Under the pieces are notes generated by a model. That model was not told where the DNA came from. It saw only the letters and a program-made list of their open reading frames with translations, and did not search any database. This document shows, in pieces, positions 3,415 to 38,904 of a stretch of DNA of 63,953 bases. The position numbers and the translations under genes were made by a program. The stretch's first letter is position 1. Every line of letters begins with the position of its first letter. Origin of the DNA: Clostridiales bacterium CHKCI006 (GTDB lineage: Bacteria > Bacillota_I > Bacilli_A > Erysipelotrichales > Coprobacillaceae); the NCBI GenBank assembly GCA_900018345.1, contig FCNA01000075.1:1-63953 (forward strand). Reading direction: 5' to 3'.

Positions 3415-3436
3415 AATGTAGCAATATTGCTACATT
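3415..3436. repeat. ICE palindrome copy 1
   Basis: TGTAGCAA-TA-TTGCTACA with flanking AA/TT, perfectly palindromic over 22 bases. On the minus strand its TAG is the stop codon of the 3430-3738 gene, and it lies just before the ribosome binding site of the lipoprotein gene. Confidence 0.9.
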
Positions 3437-3738
3437 TTGTTTTCAGAGATTGCTGCATAGATCTCATCGAATTTCTCATCCATTTTTTCAAACAACGCAT
3501 TAATGACCTGCGCCTGTTTCATATAAAAGAGCTGGCTCTGATTTGCCAGCTCTTGATGCATTTCATCGGTTACTAAAATTTTAAAATCATCACGCGATCT
3601 ATACAAGATATAGATCCTCATCATGTCGTCCAAGATCTGCTCCTGGGACATACTGATATCATTCTGGTTACTTAATTCCTGAATTTGTTTCAAGCTACTT
3701 ATAAAATAATCTGATACTCTAAAACTTCTTACCGGCAT
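3430..3738 (-). CDS. Ribbon-helix-helix-like small protein B
   Basis: A 102-residue protein. The N-terminus PVRSFRVSDYFISSLKQI followed by an amphipathic helix and ILDDMMRIYILY fits a ribbon-helix-helix fold (one strand, two helices). The rest is helical and may mediate oligomerisation. It overlaps the preceding RHH-like gene by 20 bases, so the pair is translationally coupled. The stop codon TAG is supplied by palindrome copy 1. A role as repressor or partition-site binder is inference from fold and from the palindrome-rich leader upstream. Confidence 0.6.
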   Translation of the reverse strand: MPVRSFRVSDYFISSLKQIQELSNQNDISMSQEQILDDMMRIYILYRSRDDFKILVTDEMHQELANQSQLFYMKQAQVINALFEKMDEKFDEIYAAISENKM

Positions 3739-4006
3739 GCAATTTCTCCTCTATCAGTGAATTGAATCGTGACTCGTTATTTACAACCTGATACATTTCT
3801 TCTTCAGAAGTATATTGTTTCAATTCTCCATTGGTTTTTACAAGTAGCTTGATATATTCTAAAAGAACATCCAACTCATTACTGTGTGTGTAATACGAAC
3901 GAATGAGCTCAGACATCATCTCTTCATTAGTCATATTTTTTTTCTGTTTGAGCAAATCAAATATCGTTGCATCCTCATCAGATAAATTAATTCTCTTGTA
4001 TTTCAT
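3719..4006 (-). CDS. Ribbon-helix-helix-like small protein A
   Basis: A 95-residue protein starting MKYKRINLSDEDATIFDLLKQ, a basic strand followed by a helix and then NEEMMSELIRSYY, the usual RHH second helix. Its layout matches the next gene, suggesting two diverged copies or a hetero-pair. The start follows GGTAGGTGGTG. It is the first gene downstream of the palindrome cluster at 4061-4232, which is the natural place for its own operator or a centromere-like site. No close family is recognised. Confidence 0.6.
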   Translation of the reverse strand: MKYKRINLSDEDATIFDLLKQKKNMTNEEMMSELIRSYYTHSNELDVLLEYIKLLVKTNGELKQYTSEEEMYQVVNNESRFNSLIEEKLHAGKKF

Positions 4007-4060
4007 CTATTCACCACCTACCATCAAAAATACCATTTGACATACCGAAACAGGATAAGA

Positions 4061-4232
4061 GGTCTGTGTTACACCCTGGTATTTCGGGTGGTACACAGAC
4101 CATTTGAACAAACGGACAACGTCCGTTTTCATCAGCGCTTTTTGCGCTCCTATACCGGTATATATACCGGTATTTTTTTGTGTTACAATTTCTAGGTGGT
4201 GGTATGTCGTTATATACCACTTAAAATACCAC
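4061..4232. promoter_or_regulatory. Cluster of five different inverted repeats upstream of the RHH pair
   Basis: The 229-base gap between 4006 and 4236 holds no convincing gene but has stacked dyads. They are GGTCTGTGT...ACACAGACC (4061-4101), AAACGGAC/GTCCGTTT (4110-4128), AGCGC/GCGCT (4134-4148), a perfect 22-base palindrome built from ATACCGGTATA (4152-4173, followed by T7), and GGTGGTAT...ATACCACC (about 4195-4232). Direct copies of GTGGTAT and CCATTTGA also occur. The layout fits an operator/centromere, a replication origin or an oriT; none can be chosen from sequence alone. Confidence 0.6.
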
Positions 4233-4235
4233 CTT

Positions 4236-4814
4236 TTATAGTTCCAAATCCTGATTATGCTGAATGCATTCCAATTGTTGAGTTAATGTTTCTAATTCTG
4301 CTTCTCTGCTCTGCAGATTGGATTTTAATAAGTCATTTTCATAATTCAATTTATGTATCTGTTCCTTTAAGTCATTAATCTCCTTGTATAACATACCTAA
4401 ATCTTGTATGTGCTTCTCCAAGACCATTAATGCTGCCTGTATATCTGAATCTGATGATCCTGTGCGCTCTATATTTTCCATGTAATGTTTGACACCATCA
4501 AGTGCAGACCTACTATTATCTGCTGTGAAATATATTCTATCTAGCTCTCTCATTGTTTGCTCCTGATAGAGTTCTGCTTTTTCTGAAGTATGTTTTAGTG
4601 CGATTTCCTTTTGTAATAATTCATATGACTTTAATGACTTCTTGCCCACTTTGACATCATAAACAAAATTTGTAACCAGCACACCAACTGTTGATATTAA
4701 TGCAGCGATAATAACCGGATCCATTTCGATTACTTCTCCTTTCTGATGATAAAATAAATATACCATCCAGAAAAGAAAGTTGCAAAGCGATAAAAACCAC
4801 CCATAATACATCAT
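4236..4814 (-). CDS. Membrane-anchored coiled-coil protein
   Basis: A 192-residue protein of unknown function. It has two hydrophobic segments (WFLSLCNFLFWMVYLFY and VIIAALISTVGVLVTNFVY) and a long charged coiled coil over the second half (LKEQIHKLNYENDLLKSNL, SREAELETLTQQLE). The start at 4814 follows GGGAG at good spacing. A second in-frame ATG at 4724 has an even better AAAGGAG, so a shorter 162-residue form with one membrane segment may also be made. It sits at the end of a block with pentapeptide and Ig-like membrane proteins and could be a cytoplasmic scaffold; that is inference. Confidence 0.65.
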   Translation of the reverse strand: MMYYGWFLSLCNFLFWMVYLFYHQKGEVIEMDPVIIAALISTVGVLVTNFVYDVKVGKKSLKSYELLQKEIALKHTSEKAELYQEQTMRELDRIYFTADNSRSALDGVKHYMENIERTGSSDSDIQAALMVLEKHIQDLGMLYKEINDLKEQIHKLNYENDLLKSNLQSREAELETLTQQLECIQHNQDLEL

Positions 4815-4845
4815 TTGACATACTCCCTTTGAATGCAATTCCTTA

Positions 4846-5692: not shown

Positions 5693-6805
5693 CTAAGAAA
5701 AAATGACCTGATAGCCAACGTAGATACCGTCCTGCATAATCGGATTGCATGTATAATGACTTGCCTGACCAGCCGATAACGCAGATCTTCCATAGTTTTG
5801 CGCAGCGTTTAACGTCGCTTCGGCTGATCCATAATCACTAAAATAAAATGTGCGCGACACTGCCGTTGGATCTGAGGCATGTGATTGATTACTGCCTGAC
5901 GTATTTCCTGATGAACTACTTGATGAAGATCCACCGGAAGGCGGTGAAACGATTGGCTCTGGTTCTGGTGAAATCGTCACATTTAGCACAGCCTGTCCTG
6001 TGTTCCCTGTACTGTCAGCCACTGAATATGTAACGCTGTAATGTCCAGCCGTACCAGTATCAACATCAGAGGATGTTTCAACTGCATCCATCAAATCACC
6101 ATCTACATTATCTGTAACTGAAGAAAGGTATGATCTGGCATCAAAGGTAGTTCCATATTCAAGCGTAACTGAATTGGAAGTAAGAGTTATCACCGGCGAG
6201 ATATCGTCTACAATGATCAAAACCATCGTCCGTTGTGTTTCCTTCGTCGGACTTTTAACTGTGTAAGTGAGTGTATAATCACCTACTCCAGTGATGACAG
6301 TATCGGGCAAGATCAATTCCGATCCATCGGTATAATCTTTGACAAAATCAATATAATGAATTTCAGGGACCTCAGAAACACCGCGAATTTCGCTTTCTGA
6401 GACGAGTTCTAATTCGAGCGGATTGATCATAGAAAGCAGATAATCCTTTTGCCACATGGCAATTATGAAGCCAGCAAGCATAATTAAAATGCAAACAACA
6501 AGTAGAATGATACGAATCTGCTTTTGCTGTTTGATTCTCTCTATTTTTTCATCGAAGGTCCCGGACATATGCGATATAGCTTCACGGCTCTTTTGCATAC
6601 TTTTTGCACTTATATGAGGATCACAAATAAAAGAAGGATCCATGCCATCTTCCAGGCATAAGCGGATCTCCCTCATCTGTTCCCAATCGTATTTTGTTGA
6701 AAAATAGGATAGATCTAAGTGTTTCTTATCTGCAATCCGTAGCTGCTGGATTTGAAGACTGTTCCAAGCATATTTATCCAGCAGCTCATCAAGCTGTTTG
6801 CTCAT
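5693..6805 (-). CDS. Single-pass membrane protein with extracellular Ig-like (DUF5011-type) domain
   Basis: A 370-residue type II membrane protein. The cytoplasmic N-terminus carries helical units of the QM-x-EIRLCLEDGMD kind seen in many Firmicute mobile-element proteins. One membrane helix (IRIILLVVCILIMLAGFIIAM) lies near residues 97-118. Outside it are two beta-rich segments; the second (SPVITLTSNSVTLEYGTTF to VADSTGNTGQAVLNVTI) is a DUF5011/HYR-like Ig fold. Then come a Ser/Gly linker and a C-terminal module (YFSDYGSAEATLNAAQNYG). The same architecture recurs in the 29515-30405 gene. It lies directly between two pentapeptide genes (1-12 base gaps). A surface contact role is inference. 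Confidence 0.75.
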   Translation of the reverse strand: MSKQLDELLDKYAWNSLQIQQLRIADKKHLDLSYFSTKYDWEQMREIRLCLEDGMDPSFICDPHISAKSMQKSREAISHMSGTFDEKIERIKQQKQIRIILLVVCILIMLAGFIIAMWQKDYLLSMINPLELELVSESEIRGVSEVPEIHYIDFVKDYTDGSELILPDTVITGVGDYTLTYTVKSPTKETQRTMVLIIVDDISPVITLTSNSVTLEYGTTFDARSYLSSVTDNVDGDLMDAVETSSDVDTGTAGHYSVTYSVADSTGNTGQAVLNVTISPEPEPIVSPPSGGSSSSSSSGNTSGSNQSHASDPTAVSRTFYFSDYGSAEATLNAAQNYGRSALSAGQASHYTCNPIMQDGIYVGYQVIFS

Positions 6806-6806
6806 T

Positions 6807-8120
6807 TTACATCATTCCATTCGTAATCTTCTTACCTTTAGCTGAACTTTCCGATTCCTGTTTCACTGGCTCTGATGAAGGGATATCCCGATAGAATGCT
6901 GGATTCAGCATCTTAGCAGCTAGAGCCATCGCATGCCCCATATCCAACGATTTAAAGTATGTTTCGACATCTTCTTCGGTAACAGGCTTGACGAAGCTAT
7001 TAGCAAGTTCTGGCGAAGCAAGAAAAGCAATGATATCAGCTAACGCTTGCTGTACATCGACTATATTGGACATCTTCTTTGGTTCTTGCACATTGCCTGA
7101 AACATCATTTTTTTGAGGAATAGGCATGCTGGAATCTTCAATCTCGTTAGTAACTATAAAATTATCTGGTAATTTTGCATTGAATAGATTACATCGATAA
7201 AATTTACACTCATTCAATTTAGACAGACTTAAATCTGTCATGATCAGTGAACATCGTGAAAACGAACAATTAATAAAAGTACAATTTGAAAAGATGGACT
7301 CATCGAAAATAACATCCTTAAAGGTTGTTTCATTAAAGATACTTGAGTTAAAACGACATGATGAAAATTCTGTTTCTGTCTGTAATAGCTGCTTAGTAAT
7401 ATTCAGCCGGTTAAACTCACACTCGTAAAAGTGTTTTTTGCTCATACCTAGATCAACGTTGAACACCTGTTTTTCATAAATTGCCATATCCATATCCATT
7501 ACCTCACTTTCATTTTCTTTGATATTTTCTTTCGGAACGTCGTGTTGTTGTTCCACAATTGGCTCCTGTTCAATCTCAACATCACCAGAATTTAAAAAAT
7601 CAAGCAAATGTTCATCACGGACGATTTTTATTTCCGGATTGTCTTCGATTTCCATATCTGAGAACAGGATCCCAACTGAATCAGGGTTGATTGAATTTAT
7701 AAAGGTCATCTCTTTTAGATTGACGTTACTAACGAGACAGTCTTCAAATTCGCAGCAGATAAAGGTGACATTATAAAGCGTGCTTTGCTCGAATGCGTTG
7801 TTCGCAAATCGACAGTTAATGAAAACAGCGTCAGTCAAACGAGCATTCTTAAATGTACAATCATCAAAAAAAACATTGATAAAACGGCTCTTACTGGACG
7901 TACAACTAATCGATACACGCTTCAGGATGCCAGTGTTAATCAAAAGATCGTCACGATTCTTACCAGTCAAAGTACTATTTTCAATTAATACATCGGTAAT
8001 CTTAGTAAAACGATGAATTGTCGAACGATCCAGCTTGGTTAGACTTGAACGTTCAACATCTATATAACGTGGAACAATAAGGTTGTATGCTGCATAGATT
8101 TTTTCTATTTCCAGTTTCAT
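6807..8120 (-). CDS. Two-block pentapeptide-repeat protein
   Basis: A 437-residue protein with two degenerate pentapeptide blocks, about residues 60-145 (FDDCTFKNARLTDAVFINCRF) and 235-325 (FKDVIFDESIFSNCTFINCSF), rich in the C-x-F variant. An acidic linker joins them, and a helical tail follows (VQQALADIIAFLASPELA, VETYFKSLDMGHAMALAAKM). Its ATG overlaps the stop of the VirD4-like gene by 4 bases, so it is translated with the transfer operon. I do not recognise a specific family. Its position suggests transfer or host-protection functions, without direct proof. Confidence 0.7.
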   Translation of the reverse strand: MKLEIEKIYAAYNLIVPRYIDVERSSLTKLDRSTIHRFTKITDVLIENSTLTGKNRDDLLINTGILKRVSISCTSSKSRFINVFFDDCTFKNARLTDAVFINCRFANNAFEQSTLYNVTFICCEFEDCLVSNVNLKEMTFINSINPDSVGILFSDMEIEDNPEIKIVRDEHLLDFLNSGDVEIEQEPIVEQQHDVPKENIKENESEVMDMDMAIYEKQVFNVDLGMSKKHFYECEFNRLNITKQLLQTETEFSSCRFNSSIFNETTFKDVIFDESIFSNCTFINCSFSRCSLIMTDLSLSKLNECKFYRCNLFNAKLPDNFIVTNEIEDSSMPIPQKNDVSGNVQEPKKMSNIVDVQQALADIIAFLASPELANSFVKPVTEEDVETYFKSLDMGHAMALAAKMLNPAFYRDIPSSEPVKQESESSAKGKKITNGMM

Positions 8121-10072
8121 CCTTTCCCCCCTCTGTTGATATATTCTTTTACATCGATATATTTTGCTGTTGGCTTTGGCTTATCCTCAAACTGTGTTTT
8201 ACTCTTTTTATAGAAAACATATTTATCGTAAGGCAAAAGTTTGGTGAAAAATGGATTCTGCCTTTGCCTAACAAACAAAGCTTCCCCCAGCTTGAATTTG
8301 GACAAGCGCTCAGTTGAAAAAAGCGGTTCATCTTTATCACGACCGCCTTTATCTGTATGCTTTTTTCCAGCCAGGTTAGAAAACTCCTTTAGTGTGCCTT
8401 CATCTCCGGACAGCAGATAGACTTTATTCATACAGTTATTTTTTATTGTCCTTGCCTTTTCTCTGCCGTATGTGGCTTCCAGCTGGTCAAGCCCCTGAAC
8501 AACTAACGTGACACGGATCCCGCGTGATCGTCCCGCGCTCAATACGTTCGTGATCGGTTCAAAATATGGCGATGAACCAAATTCATCCCATAAGATATTC
8601 AGTGGCACCTTTAATTTCAGATTCACATTTTCTCTGGAAGCTTCGATCAAAGATTCATACAGCTGGGCTATAAACAAGTTGACCAACGGATAATAGACAG
8701 ATTTCTCATCGTGTACTTTTAAAAAAATGACCGTCTTATGATTTCCAATCTCTTTTAAATTGATATCATTATGAGCCATCATATCGACCAGATCCTTATT
8801 GATCGTATACTTGCTCAGTGTCGTATTGAACATAGCTCTTACAGAACTTCTCGTTCCACCAGTCATTTTCAAATAACTGTTTAACTTTTTTGACAAGGCA
8901 TCCGCTGGTTTACCAAAGCTCATTGCCATATCCAAATATGTCATATCTTTCTTAACAATGACATCACCCGTTTCAATCAACTTCTGGACTCCGTTTAAAT
9001 TAACTACTTCGCTGTCTTTTGTTTCAGCTAGAAAGTAAAGCGCACCTAAAGCAAGATCTTTTGCACTGTTCATCCAGAAAGGATCCTTTTCATTTTTAGC
9101 ATTAAAAATAACATCACATACATCGCTAAAATAAGTCTCTGCTTTCGTAAAATTTCTGTACAGAATAGCATTTCCTTCCTTATCCATAATCGGATCCCCT
9201 TTTTCGTTCTTTATATCGTAATAAAAGGGGACGTGTTTTCCATAGCGTCTCTCATGAAACTTTTTTAAACGTTCGATTTCCAGATTTGTCGTTTGTGTGC
9301 TCTGTGAGCTGCGTTTGATTTCATCCATATATGCTTTCATGCCCATATCAAAGGGATTCCATCCATCTGATTTAGACGGATTGATAAAATCAATACAGTA
9401 ACAATCATAGCCATCATTTTTAAACTTCTGGTAGGTTGCTTCGGATAATTCACCTTTCAAATCGACAATAACGGCACTTTCTCCGGCTAATCTCGTCAAT
9501 TCGATCATCTCAAACAGTATACTAAACGTTTTACCGGAGTTAGTAGTCCCAACAATGAGATTATGAGAATCTGACGGATCCAGCCATACTTTATTTCTTT
9601 TGGTGATAATTGGAAGTCCTGAACGCTTATAAACTTCCTCGTCCCCGATCTTCCATTTTTTTATCTCGTATAGATCCGTTCCAAAACGCTTATTGATCTG
9701 ATGACTTATTTTTGAAATCCCAATCTGGATGCGATCATAGATAGTTAGTTGAATTTTATCTGAAGTAAAGCTGACCTTCAATAACTGCTTTTTCGCATCG
9801 CGTTTGGTCATTAATGCATTGTAATTGTCTTTATTGTACTGATTTTTAAAGCGTTTAATAGAAGCTGGAATATACAAAATGAGACCTAGGCTGGAAAGAA
9901 AACTAATCTGTGGAATAAGACCATATGTCTCTAGTATGGAGTAATCAAACAGCGAATGCTCCAATGAAAAATTCCGATATACAACGACTAAAAATGTAAT
10001 GATTGCAAAACTAATCGCATATATCATTAATCCTTGCACAATATACAGGACTATCCCTTTCAAGTATTTCAT
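8117..10072 (-). CDS. VirD4/TraG-type conjugative coupling ATPase
   Basis: A 651-residue type IV coupling protein that would bring the relaxase-DNA complex to the mating channel. Two N-terminal membrane helices (IVLYIVQGLMIYAISFAIITF and PQISFLSSLGLILYIPASI) precede the ATPase. The Walker A motif is GTTNSGKT at 175-182, followed by VIVDLKGELSE; the Walker B is NILWDEFGSS near 505, followed by SAGRSRGIRVTLVVQGLDQLE. All are typical of TraG/TraD. The length is typical. It overlaps both neighbours by 4 bases. It is one of the three signature genes, with the relaxase and VirB4, that mark the region as a conjugative element. Confidence 0.93.
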   Translation of the reverse strand: MKYLKGIVLYIVQGLMIYAISFAIITFLVVVYRNFSLEHSLFDYSILETYGLIPQISFLSSLGLILYIPASIKRFKNQYNKDNYNALMTKRDAKKQLLKVSFTSDKIQLTIYDRIQIGISKISHQINKRFGTDLYEIKKWKIGDEEVYKRSGLPIITKRNKVWLDPSDSHNLIVGTTNSGKTFSILFEMIELTRLAGESAVIVDLKGELSEATYQKFKNDGYDCYCIDFINPSKSDGWNPFDMGMKAYMDEIKRSSQSTQTTNLEIERLKKFHERRYGKHVPFYYDIKNEKGDPIMDKEGNAILYRNFTKAETYFSDVCDVIFNAKNEKDPFWMNSAKDLALGALYFLAETKDSEVVNLNGVQKLIETGDVIVKKDMTYLDMAMSFGKPADALSKKLNSYLKMTGGTRSSVRAMFNTTLSKYTINKDLVDMMAHNDINLKEIGNHKTVIFLKVHDEKSVYYPLVNLFIAQLYESLIEASRENVNLKLKVPLNILWDEFGSSPYFEPITNVLSAGRSRGIRVTLVVQGLDQLEATYGREKARTIKNNCMNKVYLLSGDEGTLKEFSNLAGKKHTDKGGRDKDEPLFSTERLSKFKLGEALFVRQRQNPFFTKLLPYDKYVFYKKSKTQFEDKPKPTAKYIDVKEYINRGGKG

Positions 10073-10572
10073 AATTCCATGGATTCCTTGTTTTTTATTT
10101 CATCTAAAAGACTAAGTTTTAATTCTGACTCATCTTCTGAAAGATCAAAACATGTACTGAAAGCGCCATATATCGTCAAAAGCGGATCCCCATCATCACT
10201 TACTTCATAACAATCATCGGGTATGCCCAACAAATGACATTCATGTATAAATTCCGTTACTGCCTGCTTTGACCAATCCTCTTTTTCGATGAAATACATA
10301 TTTGATTCTGACTGAATGATACCCTCAATACATTCCTGCATCCTGTCCGATGTCTCTTTCCAAAAAGGTTTTTCCAGCTCTGCATCAATATTTTTTAGGA
10401 TCTCAATGCTTGCATGTTCTATTTCTCTAACTATCATCTTAGGATGACTAACATCAGTGTTACAACAATATCTGCTCTTGATGACTGGCATCTCATCATT
10501 GCAAATCGTGTAATTAAACCATAGATAGCCGTTCTCTAATTCAATATTTTCAATATCAATACCAAAAGGCAT
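10069..10572 (-). CDS. Acidic hypothetical protein of the transfer operon
   Basis: A 167-residue soluble, acidic protein of unknown function between the relaxase and the coupling ATPase. It starts MPFGIDIENIELENGYLWF (beta-rich) and ends in a helix (LLDEIKNKESMEL). No membrane segment or catalytic motif is visible. The 4-base overlap with the coupling ATPase start indicates coupled translation, so it probably serves relaxosome or coupling steps. That is inference from position only. Confidence 0.65.
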   Translation of the reverse strand: MPFGIDIENIELENGYLWFNYTICNDEMPVIKSRYCCNTDVSHPKMIVREIEHASIEILKNIDAELEKPFWKETSDRMQECIEGIIQSESNMYFIEKEDWSKQAVTEFIHECHLLGIPDDCYEVSDDGDPLLTIYGAFSTCFDLSEDESELKLSLLDEIKNKESMEL

Positions 10573-10592: not shown

Positions 10593-11876
10593 TTAGATCT
10601 GAATATCATAATATCCATTTTCTATCAGAAATTCACGAAATCGCTCCAGCATTTCAGAATCAGCCTGTTCGATCATTGAAACGACATCATGGCTCACTCT
10701 TTTTATAATAGAACGCTGATTGTAATGACGCCGATGCTTTTTAATTGCTTTTTCCCGATTATTTGACTTCCTGCTGTTTTTTTCTCCTTGTATTAGATCG
10801 TTTTTGTTTGCGCTATCGTTCTTCTCAAAAACCACTGCTTCTGTGTTGATATTTTCAGGTTTACTTCGATATTCTTCTTTGTAATACTTCAAAATACGAT
10901 TGCCAATGCGAGTATACAATCGCTCAATCTCATTAGCTTTAAATGAGTCTATATCTGAATTTTGGATACTGTTCATATTGTTGCGAAGCAGATCAATATC
11001 TTCCATCCACTGCTGATATGAAGTGAATATTTTGTCATCATTCTGAATGATATCGTGAATGATTTCTTTGATTAATGGTTTGAAATCTGCCATGTGATAA
11101 GAGTTCATCTGCAATCGACCGGTCTTAGGCAAAATTTTAAATAAGGAATCAAGATCATGATTCGTATTGTTTGCGAGATAACGATCCACATTAACGATGA
11201 TTTCTTTGAATTTGAGATCCTTATTTTCAAAAAACATCTTATAATCCGAATCAATTTGATTGACCAGCTTTTTTCTTGCTTCGAGCTCTAGTGCAGTAAA
11301 ACGCTTTAAAGCTGCCAATTCATTTTTAGATAATTTACCTCTTTCACGTGTCTTCTCTTTCTCCATCCAGATAATATGGACATGCGGATGAAATTTATTG
11401 GTGTGATAATCCCACCACCAGACCATGTTGTTTGGATCATAGCCTGCATATTTAAAGAATTTGGGAAGCGCCTTAGATAATGCCGCTTCCCAATCCTCGT
11501 TTGTTGATAAACCATATTTTTCCGCTTCGTCGAAACTTTCCAGTGATAGCACATTTTCCCATGCGAGGTCGCCTGTGTTCTTAAAACACTCTGCAATTTC
11601 CTTTTTGAAAAGCATCTGCTTTTCGGGTGTGTCCAGGATCCCCATTGACGAACGCGTATAGCCTGTATGATGACTGGCAGTATAATTAAGATATCCGGTT
11701 TTTTCATTCTCTTCCAGTGTTTTTTCTGGCTCTTTTGCTTCTTCACGACCTGTATAATTCGCATAGTCAGAAAAAACCTCGCTTGTCATGACCCCTCTAA
11801 AATTAGAATTCTTTGGTGCAGCATAGCCACACCTGAAAAAACGTACTTTATCAATTTTGACTGCTATTTTGACCAC
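10593..11876 (-). CDS. mobL: MobL-type relaxase
   Basis: A 427-residue relaxase-like protein that would nick the ICE at oriT and pilot the strand. The histidine triad HPHVHIIWME lies at about residues 163-172. It is preceded by an N-terminal region with the FSDYANYTGRE tyrosine-rich block (residues 35-45), where MobL-type proteins have their DYIxYM motif. The C-terminal half is helical and basic (KAIKKHRRHYNQRSI), suited to DNA binding. The start is a GTG. The gene is next to the coupling ATPase operon and DUF3848/YodL genes, as in other Firmicute ICEs of this kind. The oriT was not found next to it. Confidence 0.8.
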   Translation of the reverse strand: MVKIAVKIDKVRFFRCGYAAPKNSNFRGVMTSEVFSDYANYTGREEAKEPEKTLEENEKTGYLNYTASHHTGYTRSSMGILDTPEKQMLFKKEIAECFKNTGDLAWENVLSLESFDEAEKYGLSTNEDWEAALSKALPKFFKYAGYDPNNMVWWWDYHTNKFHPHVHIIWMEKEKTRERGKLSKNELAALKRFTALELEARKKLVNQIDSDYKMFFENKDLKFKEIIVNVDRYLANNTNHDLDSLFKILPKTGRLQMNSYHMADFKPLIKEIIHDIIQNDDKIFTSYQQWMEDIDLLRNNMNSIQNSDIDSFKANEIERLYTRIGNRILKYYKEEYRSKPENINTEAVVFEKNDSANKNDLIQGEKNSRKSNNREKAIKKHRRHYNQRSIIKRVSHDVVSMIEQADSEMLERFREFLIENGYYDIQI

Positions 11877-13128: not shown

Positions 13129-13404
13129 TCAAAATAAATCACTATGGGATCCTGTACGCGCTAAAACTAAAGCAAGAACGTTATTCTCAATACGATAAAC
13201 CAATAGCCAGTCAGGTTGAATGTGGCATTCTCTATATCCAACATAATCACCGGTCAATTCATGATCTCGATTTACCAATGGTAGTGGCTCACCCCTGGAC
13301 AGCTTAAGAATAATCTCATCAATAAGATTCATATTCTTTCCACGCTTCATTGCTTTCTTGTAATCTTTTTTAAAGCGACTGGTCCAAATAATATCGAGCT
13401 TCAT
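13129..13404 (-). CDS. yafQ: YafQ-family mRNA interferase toxin
   Basis: A 91-residue RelE/ParE-superfamily toxin: KLDIIWTSRFKKDYKKAMKRG, then LPLVNRDHELTGDYVGYRECHIQPDWLLVYRI and ARTGSHSDLF. The HxL...D-x-x-L-x-Y-R core with the C-terminal ARTGSHSDLF matches YafQ, which cleaves mRNA in the ribosome. Antitoxin and toxin overlap by 4 bases in the standard antitoxin-first order. It would stabilise the ICE. The family's catalytic His/Asp/Phe positions all look present, so it is probably active. Confidence 0.9.
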   Translation of the reverse strand: MKLDIIWTSRFKKDYKKAMKRGKNMNLIDEIILKLSRGEPLPLVNRDHELTGDYVGYRECHIQPDWLLVYRIENNVLALVLARTGSHSDLF

Positions 13405-13673
13405 CGTTTTAGTTCTCTTAGTGCTTCTTCAACGTTATAACGTTTCGTTGTCGGATCATGCAACAGTCTCTCAGCCTCGTTCAAAGCGTCGATTGTCTCC
13501 TGATTATACGAATCAGTTAACCTGACATCAAATGGAAAGCCTCCGGCTTTAATTGCTTTTCTTAAAAAAACATTTACAGCAGTGGTTAAATTGATACCTA
13601 ACTCATTGAAGATTTCTTCACTTTCTTTTTTTACTTTTTCATCAATACGAACATTGAAATTTACACTAGGCAT
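13401..13673 (-). CDS. dinJ: RelB/DinJ-family antitoxin
   Basis: A 90-residue antitoxin with a ribbon-helix-helix N-terminus (MPSVNFNVRIDEKVKKESE, then NELGINLTTAVNVFLRKAI) and a toxin-binding C-terminus (ERLLHDPTTKRYNVEEALRELKR). The ATG at 13673 is set by GAAAGGAG; an in-frame Met three codons earlier lacks one. It would neutralise the YafQ-type toxin downstream and repress its own promoter. A diverged copy is at 40686-40949. Confidence 0.9.
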   Translation of the reverse strand: MPSVNFNVRIDEKVKKESEEIFNELGINLTTAVNVFLRKAIKAGGFPFDVRLTDSYNQETIDALNEAERLLHDPTTKRYNVEEALRELKR

Positions 13674-13696
13674 ATAAGTCAACTCCTTTCATATAT

Positions 13697-14583: not shown

Positions 14584-15579
14584 TTAATAAAACCGATTCA
14601 TAGAGTGAATCGAACGATAATAATATGTTCCAGGTGCAATTGAAGAAATCTTAACACATTGATCCGGATATTGCCCAACCGTACCCGATCCATCGCCGCT
14701 TGCATGAACCACTTCCTGATTCCCTATATATATACCGACATGTTCGATTGACCCATTACGATCCCAGTCAAAATAGACGCAATCACCCGGCATGAGATCG
14801 CCATAACTAAGACGGATCCCCATCTGTGAGTAGGCGGTCGCACCTAATCGCTGTACTGATACACCTGCCTGTTTATATGCCCAACAGACTAATCCGCTGC
14901 AATCAAAATAATCTGGTCCTTCTGCACCCCAATAGTATCGACACCCTAACCGACTTAACGCATAATTAGCGATATTTTCACCCGTCGTACCGTTGTAGTT
15001 CGGTATATATTGATATGTCTCATCATACATGATGGTCATTAGGGTCGTCAGATCTGTTTCTGTGAGATCATGATTGGCAAAGCTGGAAACAAACGGATTC
15101 GTAGTCAGCACAAAACTAGTGAATGTATTTGCATCAATGTTATCTGGCATATATGTACTCAAATAATTGGCAACAATTGTCAGATTTTCTACGTTGATTT
15201 CTTCGCACTGTGTTACTAGAAATGGGAAAAGGAGATTTCGATTCGTGACTGTAGAAGTTTCACTAAACCTGTTTAACACTTCCTCGATTGCGGTTTGATA
15301 CAGAATGCTATCCGATAATTCATCCATCGTGTCATTGATCATGCGTCGATAAAAGGCATACATATCTTCAGTAGTAGCATCTCCGCTACCAAACAAAAAA
15401 TCATGCCCTATATCGATCAGTCCACCACCAAAATCAACCACGGTCTGAACCGGATGGGAAACCGCTTGACTGACTGCAACGAACGGTACACAAATAATCA
15501 CTACTATCAAAATAACAGGAGTCAATAGTGCAATCATCATGACTCCTGCCTTCCTGGTCACCTTACCTAATTCTTTCAT
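14584..15579 (-). CDS. NlpC/P60 peptidoglycan hydrolase of the conjugation machinery
   Basis: A 331-residue VirB1-like cell-wall hydrolase that would open peptidoglycan for the mating channel. One N-terminal membrane segment (VMMIALLTPVILIVVIICVPF) anchors it. A helical middle (residues 60-190) precedes the C-terminal NlpC/P60 domain with its catalytic Cys in YFDCSGLVCWAYKQAGV, His in SIEHVGIYIG, and VVHASGDG. The stop overlaps the VirB4 start/stop region by 1 base. NlpC/P60 next to VirB4 is the standard order in Firmicute type IV systems. All catalytic residues are visible. Confidence 0.88.
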   Translation of the reverse strand: MKELGKVTRKAGVMMIALLTPVILIVVIICVPFVAVSQAVSHPVQTVVDFGGGLIDIGHDFLFGSGDATTEDMYAFYRRMINDTMDELSDSILYQTAIEEVLNRFSETSTVTNRNLLFPFLVTQCEEINVENLTIVANYLSTYMPDNIDANTFTSFVLTTNPFVSSFANHDLTETDLTTLMTIMYDETYQYIPNYNGTTGENIANYALSRLGCRYYWGAEGPDYFDCSGLVCWAYKQAGVSVQRLGATAYSQMGIRLSYGDLMPGDCVYFDWDRNGSIEHVGIYIGNQEVVHASGDGSGTVGQYPDQCVKISSIAPGTYYYRSIHSMNRFY

Positions 15580-17435
15580 TATGGGATCAGCCTAAGCTCA
15601 TCCTCTGATGCGAGAAAACGCACTGGGATACGCTTATTTTCGATGCACATCAGACCACAGTGTACCGGCAGATTCAGGATAGTGTTCTTCTCTTCGTTGG
15701 TTAGATTGATCAGCTTGGAAAGATCATTGATGCCATCGAGTGTTAGATTCATATAGATCTGATAGGTCGCATTATCGAAAATTGCTTTACCTTCAGATAA
15801 TATCTTCTCATTAGAATAGTCGTGTACTTCCTGTGTACCTGTCAGTGTCGCTGAGCTGTATTTTCTCGCACGTCGTTGGATAACTGAAAGAACTTCAGCA
15901 AGATAAGGCTCATTGATGAACATATGTTCTTCGTCAATAGCTAGCACGGACATATCCGTGTTCTCTAGACATACCGACCACGCATACTGGAAAACCATTC
16001 GTAATAATGCATTCTGAACATTTCGTGAAACATTGATCAATGACTTTGTACCAAAAGAAATGATGTTACGTTGGAGTTCTTCTCTGGAAATGGATGTCGT
16101 CCCGTTAAGAAACCTTCCATACTCACCCTCGATTCCTCTGTGCCCGGTAATCGACCTCATTCTCATCTGTAAATGTTTAAGTGCAGCTACTTCTCGATCT
16201 GAATGCGGGCTACTCGAATAAACCTGTATCTTTTGATCCAGAACTGCTGAAAAATTATCAAAGGTAGGATAATCTTCTACACCGAGATTTTCAAAACTTT
16301 TTTCAAATGTAATTCCAACATCAGCATAGGTATCGTATACAATCTCCGAGATCATGCTCAGCTCGTCGTCTGTGATATTTTCCCAGAGCATTTTGAATGT
16401 GATCTTAATCTCTTCAACCACATTAGTAATGGCCAGCCGGGTATTATACATTGATTCTCTGCTGATACGATCATCAGAGGATATAGGTTTAAGATCAAAG
16501 ATATTGATGATCTTACTTCCATCTCCAAAACTGATGAAAGCACCACCTACATATTGTGTTAGTCGATAATTCTTGTCTTCCGGATCGATCCAGACGATCT
16601 TTCGATGATGGATAAGATGCCCCATCAGGATCATATTCATCAGCACCGTTTTTCCCATCCCGGTACGACCTACAATGATCGTATTGCCGGAAGCACGATT
16701 ATACATCTTTGCCAGGCTTGGATGTGTCTGCCATAAGAACTGGTTGAAGATGATCTTACCACCCGTGCTTAATTCATGACCAATCAAAGTGCCATCTGGA
16801 TCTTCGAGGGTATCATATACAAATGGCCAAAGCGCTGCACAACTAATGCTGTCCATTGGCTGACCAATTAGAAAGTTCTCATCCTTATTCAAACCACTTT
16901 CTACAAATAAAGGTGAATTCTTCCTGTAATAAGCCTGCTGTAAATATGAAACTGTACGTGTCTTCACTTCATACTGTGACGCTTCAAGACTATCCTTTAC
17001 ATATTTTGTTTTTTCATTTAATTCTTCTAGGGTATCTCCTTTAACGTAAATATTCACTATAACATTCACAGTCGTACTCGTCTGTCGGACGTTGCGTGAA
17101 ATAAACGTCTTTAAATTATCATAACGAACTCGCAAACGTTCTTTTGACTGCGGATCTGATGATTTACGATACAGTTCTTCATAGTGATTCATCTGATTTT
17201 TTAAAGCAGATGAGATATCCAGATCAGAATGTTCGACCACCATATCAATATCAAAATTGGGATCGCCTACAAACCGAACCAGTAATCCTTCTACAAATTC
17301 AAACGGATATTTATATATTGACAATACACGGGTATATTTCTCACCCATACGATAATACGTACTATATTCCTTCATCCCGGTTGGACTGATCGTAGTCCGT
17401 CTGGGATTGCGTTTGCGTCTAGCCAGCATCGCCAA
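15579..17435 (-). CDS. VirB4/TrsE-type conjugation ATPase
   Basis: A 618-residue ATPase that powers assembly of the mating channel. Walker A GRTGMGKT is at 256-263 and Walker B VLAIDEEHMF is near 497-506, followed by RRARKYSSATLTGTQEV. The N-terminal CagE/TrbE-like region covers residues 30-190. A TTG start at 17435 has ideal spacing from AAAGGAG; an ATG two codons later is the alternative. It follows the TrsD-like and PrgI/TrsC-like genes, the order known from pSK41-type Gram-positive transfer regions. It looks intact. Confidence 0.92.
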   Translation of the reverse strand: MAMLARRKRNPRRTTISPTGMKEYSTYYRMGEKYTRVLSIYKYPFEFVEGLLVRFVGDPNFDIDMVVEHSDLDISSALKNQMNHYEELYRKSSDPQSKERLRVRYDNLKTFISRNVRQTSTTVNVIVNIYVKGDTLEELNEKTKYVKDSLEASQYEVKTRTVSYLQQAYYRKNSPLFVESGLNKDENFLIGQPMDSISCAALWPFVYDTLEDPDGTLIGHELSTGGKIIFNQFLWQTHPSLAKMYNRASGNTIIVGRTGMGKTVLMNMILMGHLIHHRKIVWIDPEDKNYRLTQYVGGAFISFGDGSKIINIFDLKPISSDDRISRESMYNTRLAITNVVEEIKITFKMLWENITDDELSMISEIVYDTYADVGITFEKSFENLGVEDYPTFDNFSAVLDQKIQVYSSSPHSDREVAALKHLQMRMRSITGHRGIEGEYGRFLNGTTSISREELQRNIISFGTKSLINVSRNVQNALLRMVFQYAWSVCLENTDMSVLAIDEEHMFINEPYLAEVLSVIQRRARKYSSATLTGTQEVHDYSNEKILSEGKAIFDNATYQIYMNLTLDGINDLSKLINLTNEEKNTILNLPVHCGLMCIENKRIPVRFLASEDELRLIP

Positions 17436-37276: not shown

Positions 37277-38047
37277 TTAATGTTCTTGGTTTGGCTGTAA
37301 AAGATTGAGCAAGTCGTAGGCTGTTTCAAGAGCATCAAGTGCAGTCGTGGTCTTTTCTGCACCTGATTTATTTACATAAGTAATCAGTTCTTCCACTTGA
37401 CCCATTTCAATGGCTTCTTTCAACCTTGCTAATATTTTAATAAGCTTCTTTTTCTCTTTGGCTAGATCAATTTTCACCCCCTTTTTTTCGCTTTCAGTTC
37501 CAAATTCTGCTGCAACTTCCTTTTCTTTACTGTCCTTTCCGTGGATTTTATCTAATAAAGATTGGACAGTCCGTGGACTTTTCCCAATGTAAGGTGCAAT
37601 CCACTCAACTTTCCTTCCACCTGGCTTTAATTCGTTGTATAGATCTTCTAATTCAGCCACGACTTGCATGATTTCCGCCTTACTCATATCGCGCTGAGCA
37701 TTGGATCTAATTAAAGATAGACGTTCATTGGCTGTCGTTGCTGGTACTGGATAAACAAGACATTTAATGGGGCCAGTCCATTCCCCTTTGTTTTGCAATT
37801 CTAGAATAGCTCGATATCGCCGTTCTCCACCCAACAGTACGTAGTTACCAGATACTTCATCCAGATAGACCTCTAAAGGCTTTTGCAGCCCATAGCGCCT
37901 AATATCGTCAGCCAAAGCATCGATTTCAGACATTGGATAAATGTTCAAATGATTTATTTCAATGTCTCCGCCATCAATTTTTTTCAATTCCAATGCATCT
38001 GTTTCTTTGTGTAGGGACTGCTGTCCCATAATGCTCATTAAGCTCAT
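37277..38047 (-). CDS. parB: ParB-family partition protein
   Basis: A 256-residue ParB/Spo0J-type protein. The N-terminal ParB domain has IYPMSEIDALADDIRRYGLQ and LLGGERRYRAILE, the GERRxRA motif of the CTP-binding fold. A helix-turn-helix region follows (QRDMSKAEIMQVVAELEDLY, KSPRTVQSLLDKIHG), then a coiled C-terminus. It should bind palindromic sites and work with ParA to partition or regulate the excised ICE. TGATG joins the ParA stop to its start. The ICE palindrome TGTAGCAANNTTGCTACA is one possible target (inference). Confidence 0.9.
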   Translation of the reverse strand: MSLMSIMGQQSLHKETDALELKKIDGGDIEINHLNIYPMSEIDALADDIRRYGLQKPLEVYLDEVSGNYVLLGGERRYRAILELQNKGEWTGPIKCLVYPVPATTANERLSLIRSNAQRDMSKAEIMQVVAELEDLYNELKPGGRKVEWIAPYIGKSPRTVQSLLDKIHGKDSKEKEVAAEFGTESEKKGVKIDLAKEKKKLIKILARLKEAIEMGQVEELITYVNKSGAEKTTTALDALETAYDLLNLLQPNQEH

Positions 38048-38904
38048 CAATCAGCGCCCCCTTTCAGAAATTCATCAACGAATGCTTTATAATCATTTAG
38101 AACGTTGCTTTTTTTATCCAACAAAGAACGATTCTCAACGCTGCTTTTTGCAACTGCTGCGTCCTGATAACTAATCATTGTCTTAAATAAACGATCCGGA
38201 AACATTGCTTCAAGCGCTTCACGTTCAAGCAATTCAATGTTTCTTTTTTGCCTATGCATCATCGTCATCAGAATCTTAAAATTAATATTCACACCGAAAT
38301 TCTGGTTGATTTCAGAGATATCCGCTAGGGTCTTTCTCAACCCGTCTAGCTCATCACCACCTGCTTTTAAAGTGATAATGACAAGATCTGATGCAAACAA
38401 GCTATTGATAATCGTCATATTCGCACTAGGCGCATTGTCGATGACGATATAATCAAATTCATTAGCAACCATCTTGAATGCACGAGAGAAACGGGTCTGT
38501 TGTGGTGAACGCGTATCTAGTAATACCATCTGATCTGCTTTGATGAGTTCCTCATTTGCAGGGCAAAGGTACAAATTCTCATGGTTGGTTTCAAAACAGC
38601 ATCTGTGAATGCTTGCTGGATCAATCAATACGTCGTAGGTGCCGCTAGTGTACTTATCATCTTTTAACTGTTCAGTCAGGCTTTGAAGTGGATGGCTTAT
38701 GCCGTTTTCTTTTAGAATGCTGAATATTTGCTTAAAATCTTTCTTGCACGTATCTGTAAATCTTCTAGTGGTATTAGCCTGCTCATCTGCATCCACTAGT
38801 AGGACTTTATACCCCTTTGAAGCTACGATCTGTGCGAATGTTACTGCGGATGTTGTTTTTCCAGTTCCGCCTTTTCTGGATTGAAAACTAATTACTTTTG
38901 CCAT
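38047..38904 (-). CDS. parA: ParA/Soj-family ATPase
   Basis: A 285-residue deviant-Walker ATPase. SRKGGTGKTTSAVTFA (Lys11 and Lys16) is followed by VLLVDADEQANTTRR, and DYIVIDNAPSANM is the switch/Walker B region. It drives segregation of the excised element together with ParB. It is the first gene of the ParA-ParB-36007 operon. Length and motifs are normal. Confidence 0.92.
   Translation of the reverse strand: MAKVISFQSRKGGTGKTTSAVTFAQIVASKGYKVLLVDADEQANTTRRFTDTCKKDFKQIFSILKENGISHPLQSLTEQLKDDKYTSGTYDVLIDPASIHRCCFETNHENLYLCPANEELIKADQMVLLDTRSPQQTRFSRAFKMVANEFDYIVIDNAPSANMTIINSLFASDLVIITLKAGGDELDGLRKTLADISEINQNFGVNINFKILMTMMHRQKRNIELLEREALEAMFPDRLFKTMISYQDAAVAKSSVENRSLLDKKSNVLNDYKAFVDEFLKGGAD

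Follow-up and report, generated by a model that had tools for sequence, protein, structure and literature searches.

A very probable origin of transfer with an IncP-like core upstream of two RHH-like genes in an ICE of Clostridiales bacterium CHKCI006

Introduction

The MOBP nick consensus is (C/T)ATCCTG(C/T), with an inverted repeat just 5' of it, and the oriTs of RP4/VirD2 type are described as carrying the nick sequence YATCCTGY directly 3' of this repeat (PMC3772185). The core of pWBG749-type oriTs is CTTATGCTCTT (PMC4652767), which is present in both the pWBG749 oriT and pLS20. In pWBG749 (MOBMG, Staphylococcus aureus plasmids), hairpins lie just 5' of the short core and are accompanied by accessory repeats (PMC4652767, PMC8136818). 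The RHH gene smpO adjoins the oriT, the relaxase is annotated as MobP2, and SmpO sites are described both outside and inside the core-proximal repeat; autoregulation by SmpO has been suggested (PMC8136818). In pLS20 (MOBL), the oriT is just upstream of two RHH genes and the relaxase is of the MobL family (PMC5313138, PMC5675868). The aux1 and aux2 genes stand between oriT and relaxase (PMC5675868), the Aux1-bound fragment contains TGGTACCA, and hairpins are followed by CCCCTTATGCTC. The published pLS20 nick is given as a drop after GAATCGGGGGCCGG on the template strand, outside the TTATGCTC core (PMC5313138). In the single literature collection searched, we recognised no paper in which a MobL relaxase is assigned a TTATCCTG oriT.

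Here we analyse a stretch of 63,953 nucleotides (the window) from a genome of 3.33 Mb in 164 contigs. The window holds an ICE-like block with nearly everything on the - strand. Judged from the sequence, the gap at 4007-4235 is very probably the origin of transfer of this ICE. It contains two hairpins, A and B, followed by a nick sequence. As in the RP4/VirD2-type oriTs, the nick sequence is directly 3' of an inverted repeat, but the relaxase is MobL instead of TraI/VirD2, and hairpin A and RHH arrays are additional. As in pWBG749, hairpins stand just 5' of a short core with accessory repeats outside and inside the core-proximal hairpin, an RHH-like gene adjoins, and the cores agree in 9 of 11 letters (CTTATGCTCTT in pWBG749, CTTATCCTGTT in the window). 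The window departs from pWBG749 in its IncP-like core TTATCCTG, in having two RHH-like genes, in TACC/GGTA half-sites phased at 12 bp, and in the long distance that separates its oriT and RHH-like genes from the relaxase. As to the branched hairpins IR1-IR3 of that group, two hairpins are predicted in the window, and no outer IR1 round both was recognised by eye. The window shares with pLS20 the position of the oriT just upstream of two RHH-like genes, the MobL-family relaxase, the order of hairpins and core, and the half-sites of which TGGTACCA is built; it differs in that our model of the module finds no good match in the pLS20 oriT and in that the published pLS20 nick is outside the core. 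By analogy, the window oriT probably works like those of pLS20 and pWBG749, with RHH accessory proteins and hairpins 5' of a different core.

Results

Two RHH-like genes lie directly after the gap on the - strand. The first (RHH1, 3719-4006) encodes a probable relaxosome accessory protein, of which a homologue is found beside the MobL relaxase in relatives, and the second (RHH2, 3430-3738) a probable second accessory protein, whose homologues follow gene 1 in relatives. The gap of 229 bp and the gene overlap of 20 nt bear out the first-pass annotation, which had placed a cluster of dyads before two overlapping RHH-like genes. The two proteins had no Pfam or NCBIfam match at cut-off and no significant PHROG match. 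AlphaFold models (pLDDT 61.5 for RHH1 and 80.8 for RHH2) have a helix-helix arrangement after a short N-terminal segment, and many RHH proteins, such as CopG, ParD2, NikR, and Arc, are among the Foldseek rows, none of them with E below 1. The RHH label is likely for both proteins rather than proven.

Beyond the pair are a lipoprotein-like ORF, a ToxN-like gene (type III toxin-antitoxin, 2255-2851) in the predicted leading region, and a serine recombinase gene (746-2098, Pfam Resolvase); Rfam gave no match at gathering score for an antitoxin RNA of the ToxN-like gene. On the other side of the gap are a coiled-coil-like ORF (4236-4838), a type IV coupling protein gene of VirD4/TraG type (8117-10072, - strand; Pfam T4SS-DNA_transf, 134.7 bits), the gene of a MobL-type relaxase that is expected to nick the oriT (10593-11876, - strand; Pfam MobL PF18555, 55.4 bits against a cut-off of 28.5), a VirB4-like ATPase gene (15579-17435), and ParB-like and ParA genes (37277-38904, with ParA at 38047-38904 by Pfam). 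The relaxase scored 119.7 bits with NCBIfam MobP3, which is under its cut-off of 150. No tblastn match in plasmids was obtained for RHH1 at E 0.01, for RHH2 at E 1, or for the relaxase at 1e-10. The related-locus search gave none for RHH1 in genome contigs and none for the relaxase in viral or genome contigs.

All of the five dyads claimed in the first-pass annotation are present, at 4061-4233, and they are real and far beyond chance. Folding as single-stranded DNA gave z values of -7.65 for the + strand and -7.12 for the - strand, and 0 of 200 shuffles folded as well. The arms of hairpin B (4061-4076/4086-4101) are 16 nt long and 88% complementary with a 9-nt loop, and those of hairpin A (4110-4117/4121-4128) are perfect 8-bp arms with a 3-nt loop. 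These are followed by AGCGC-TTTTT-GCGCT (4134-4148), a perfect 22-base palindrome (4152-4173), and the dyad GGTGGTAT/ATACCACC (4198-4205/4226-4233). The dyads had been called unrelated, which does not hold, as a half-site, TACC/GGTA, recurs in three of the five and in the flanks, for the most part as pairs spaced 12 bp. The half-site is common to the 22-mer, where it occurs on both strands with each pair spaced 12 bp, to the 4198-4233 dyad, and to the loop and inner arms of hairpin B, where two half-sites are 12 bp apart (4077-4093). The distal array (4198-4233) has TACC at 4215 and 4227 and GGTA at 4201, and the array between the nick and the start of RHH1 (4019-4046) has TACC at 4019, 4031, and 4043, again spaced 12 bp.

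The segment 4007-4235 has 12 copies of TACC/GGTA, where 229 bp of the window contain 1.28 on average, and six of the seven same-strand half-site pairs spaced 12 bp in the whole window fall in this gap. Five-mer matches at lag 12 number 14 in the dyad region (the next-best lag is 4), a count reached by 0 of 2000 dinucleotide shuffles, of which the maximum was 6; elsewhere in the window the lag-12 maximum is 13, near 57.1 kb. A T run follows the 22-base palindrome on the + strand (4152-4180) and is terminator-like, facing a strand without evident genes here.

The oriT core module (4049-4129, - strand) consists of hairpin A (4110-4128; AAACGGAC-GTT-GTCCGTTT), the linker GTTCAAAT, hairpin B (4061-4101), and the nick sequence. 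This two-hairpin module ends in TTATCCTG^T, a nick sequence of MOBP type. The predicted nic TATCCTG^T occupies 4050-4057, the nick is expected between 4051 (G) and 4050 (T), and TATCCTGT at 4057-4050 on the - strand agrees with (C/T)ATCCTG(C/T). The motif by itself is weak because the window has 16 (C/T)ATCCTG(C/T) sites. Hairpin B adjoins the nick, with 4 nt between its end and ATCCTG, and relatives have a hairpin at the same place. Of the 72 ATCCTG sites in the window, only two have such a hairpin 5'. The other 22 of the 23 TATCCTG sites in the window were discarded as oriT candidates because they are without the module. No known RNA of Rfam matched the window.

A covariance model (R1) was built from 15 relatives with the window left out. 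The alignment was made with MAFFT, and pairs were counted on hairpin A only; hairpin B was misplaced in several rows. An initial hairpin scan with strict arms had missed the sites of the loci L021, L023, and L024, which were then added by eye. An ATCCTG of L026 was rejected as a nick site, since it is a spurious match in coding sequence. In the 15 relatives TTATCCTG is invariant, and all 120 cells of hairpin A are paired, and five of the eight pairs show changes in both partners. Such two-sided changes affect 30 cells, against a mean of 8.7 after shuffling. The covariation score of 0.674 (0.216 when shuffled, at most 0.158 when slid) is not a probability because the rows are related.

R1 matched the module in the window with 55.4 bits (E 6.1e-10). 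This was the only good match in the 64 kb, the next having 9.4 bits, and no second module was found. The module was found at 26 of 28 MobL-relaxase loci with at least 33.6 bits, 15 of these being training loci. Among the 13 non-training loci, 11 were matched (33.6-61.4 bits), including L052 and L053, which had been noticed in the earlier hairpin scan but were kept out of R1; the two missed were L026, which has a truncated relaxase, and L050.

Of the 43 genomes of the family, 10 carry relatives of the relaxase, the window's own genome being among the 10; in the order it is 37 of 315 genomes. An R1 census of the order gave 42 matches in 29 of the 315 genomes (E 1e-4), and 35 of the 42, training loci included, are at most 10 kb from a MobL-type relaxase place. 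Viewed from the relaxase, 33 of 50 places have a match within 10 kb and 17 have none; six of the latter (L051, L052, L053, L058, L065, L066) were matched in a more sensitive locus search. Both features were present in 25 genomes, the relaxase only in 12, the oriT only in four, and neither in 274 (Fisher p 5e-24; the counts take in the training loci, and the genomes are related). Of the seven unlinked matches, one is near a more distant MobL relaxase (L101, 5140-6399; HMM 123 bits); it belongs to the window's own genome (G000:C56). No MobL relaxase was seen in the other six stretches (L102-L107), several of which are short contigs. In a sample of the phylum, R1 matched seven of 392 genomes, all belonging to the order of the window, and therefore either the variant or R1 is narrow. 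The 230-bp segment had no blastn match in plasmids, and the L022 oriT as a query gave only three short weak matches.

The layout common to the other loci is hairpin A, a TTGTYCAAA-like linker, hairpin B, and CCTTATCCTGY, often with repeats on both sides. In L018 (G037), homologues of RHH1 (34%) and RHH2 stand between a CHAP/NlpC-like gene and the relaxase, and the gap upstream contains TGGTATAC repeats at 12-bp spacing, two hairpins, and CTTATCCTG. In relatives the RHH-like pair lies between the module and the relaxase, like aux1-aux2 of pLS20 and as in the pWBG749/MOBMG gene order. In the window, by comparison, the pair follows the oriT while the relaxase is on the other side; module and pair are at the recombinase end, 6.5 kb from the relaxase, a distance among the longest in the census. 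The oriT and its accessory genes are thus placed as if moved as a cassette. We do not assign the window to the MOBMG/pWBG749 group because its core and gene order differ. In the stretch where relatives carry the oriT and the RHH pair, the window has two small ORFs (13129-13682) that by eye resemble a toxin-antitoxin pair of RelB/DinJ-YafQ type.

The letters of the repeat vary, being GGTATAC in L018 and L022, GTATTACA in L020, and GTCGC in L021 and L023. The exact spacing of 12 bp is not general, since the top lag is 12 in only four of 27 other oriT flanks; it is 13 in L020 and L049 and 11 in L056 and L066. The repeat common to L018 and L022 goes together with an RHH1 start of LQI[RK] in both, which is no more than suggestive.

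The eight core letters in 36 module sequences are TTATCCTG in 28, TTACCCTG in four, TTATCTTG in two, and TTATCCCG in one; in L066 they read CCCTTATG because the frame is shifted by two bases, and the place of the core has CCCTTATGCTCG. The relaxase tree joins L066, with TATGCTC, and L063, with TATCCTG, as sisters (98/92) in a starred clade. The pLS20 and pWBG749 relaxases pair elsewhere (100/100) on a long branch, and the deep forks are weak. The fewest core changes on this tree are six. TTATCCTG lies on the coding strand of the relaxase in nine of the 26 matched relatives (L018-L024, L048, L065) and on the opposite strand in the other 17; L101 and the window are like the nine.

Discussion

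The oriT reading, which the first-pass annotation had offered as its alternative, is strongly supported because the conserved hairpin-hairpin-TTATCCTG module was found blind by the model of the relatives and is linked to MobL relaxases, and because relatives have the RHH-like pair between module and relaxase. The comparison with related ICEs that the annotation had proposed showed conservation of the two-hairpin module, but the dyad at 4134-4148 is outside it and outside the R1 match. In the mechanism we propose, the two RHH-like proteins would occupy the half-site arrays that flank the nick and those within hairpin B, where they would bend the DNA or open it and recruit the MobL relaxase. This enzyme may read hairpin B as a single strand, so that hairpin B plus TTATCCTGT is its predicted single-stranded substrate. 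It would then nick after ATCCTG on the - strand, between 4051 and 4050, and stay on the 5' end at 4050. With the nick there, the leading DNA would comprise RHH1, RHH2, the lipoprotein-like gene, the ToxN-like gene, and the serine recombinase gene. For nicking, RHH binding, and mobilisation alike, the sequence is what we infer from.

Autoregulation is common among RHH proteins. The half-sites at 12-bp spacing extend to the ribosome-binding region of RHH1, as would be expected if the region were only an operator on which the RHH proteins repress their own operon, with no function in transfer. This is very unlikely, as it leaves unexplained why two hairpins and TTATCCTG are conserved beside MobL relaxases and why the module is present in L024, where no adjoining RHH-like gene was seen. 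An autoregulatory role may coexist with the oriT because it is plausible that the RHH proteins bind next to their genes, and through the array between nick and RHH1 they probably also lower the expression of their own operon.

The leading idea of the first-pass annotation, a centromere for partition of ParR/omega type, would fit the RHH-like genes that adjoin a repeat array. We found no support for it and consider it more improbable still than a mere operator: no ParM-type gene was noticed, nor any partner motor gene (ParM or ParA) among the ORFs adjoining the pair, the ParA and ParB-like genes are away at 37277-38904, and in relatives the arrays surround the relaxase-linked nick module. In some other ICEs, rolling-circle replication also begins at the relaxase nick site, and the layout of hairpin and nick would suit an origin at which the relaxase replicates the excised ICE while transfer is initiated elsewhere. 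We give this as little credence as the centromere, since the window has no second module from which transfer could start; the roles of replication origin and transfer origin are not exclusive.

The origin of transfer proposed here also bears on pLS20, of which the published nick is about 40 bp from CCTTATGCTC. Among the matches listed (30 of 257 plasmid records), 25 are diverged, and in these the match stops at query position 65-74 of 151, shortly after the TTATGCTC core and before the mapped nick is reached. This sequence pattern is a hint, set against a direct experiment. In pLS20 itself (L069, 27690-27760), CCCCTTATGCTC forms the end of the core that pLS20-like oriTs conserve. A wider reading, to which we give somewhat less than an even chance, would join these data: the MOBL oriTs may form one family, with the IncP-like TATCCTG and the plasmid TATGCTC as core variants at one position; the true pLS20 nick may be at CCTTATGCTC and not at the mapped place; and the element-specific half-site arrays, phased at 11-13 bp, may be a specificity code that relaxase-less elements copy, such as that in L107. 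The results place a transfer origin to the base, as predicted, for an ICE lineage in one order, and R1 finds the oriT in other genomes. They also suggest that the nick of MOBP and the core of MOBL/MOBMG represent a single site, question the published nick position, and open to testing which relaxase-less elements travel with these ICEs.

L107 (G061:C21:38000-55278) contains a small element (5887-9707) beside a tRNA-Thr gene, with a tyrosine integrase, an AAA_25 (RepA-like) protein, and an oriT module at 9646-9707. With no MobL relaxase in this 17-kb stretch, it is a candidate relaxase-less mobilisable element; no repeat of the tRNA-Thr region of at least 10 nt was found in 9300-10100. The module of L102 (5380-5459) is among ordinary-looking metabolic and regulatory genes, and no mobile-element genes were noticed on its 10.5-kb contig. 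L108 has two inverted oriT modules about 210 bp apart (11416-11485, - strand; 11698-11768, + strand), and a third module with a MobL relaxase is 9 kb off. In the window's own genome, L101 (G000:C56, 5140-10005) holds a second oriT module together with the divergent MobL relaxase, and an accessory-like protein encoded there (7409-8014) joins an HTH and a CopG/RHH-type domain.
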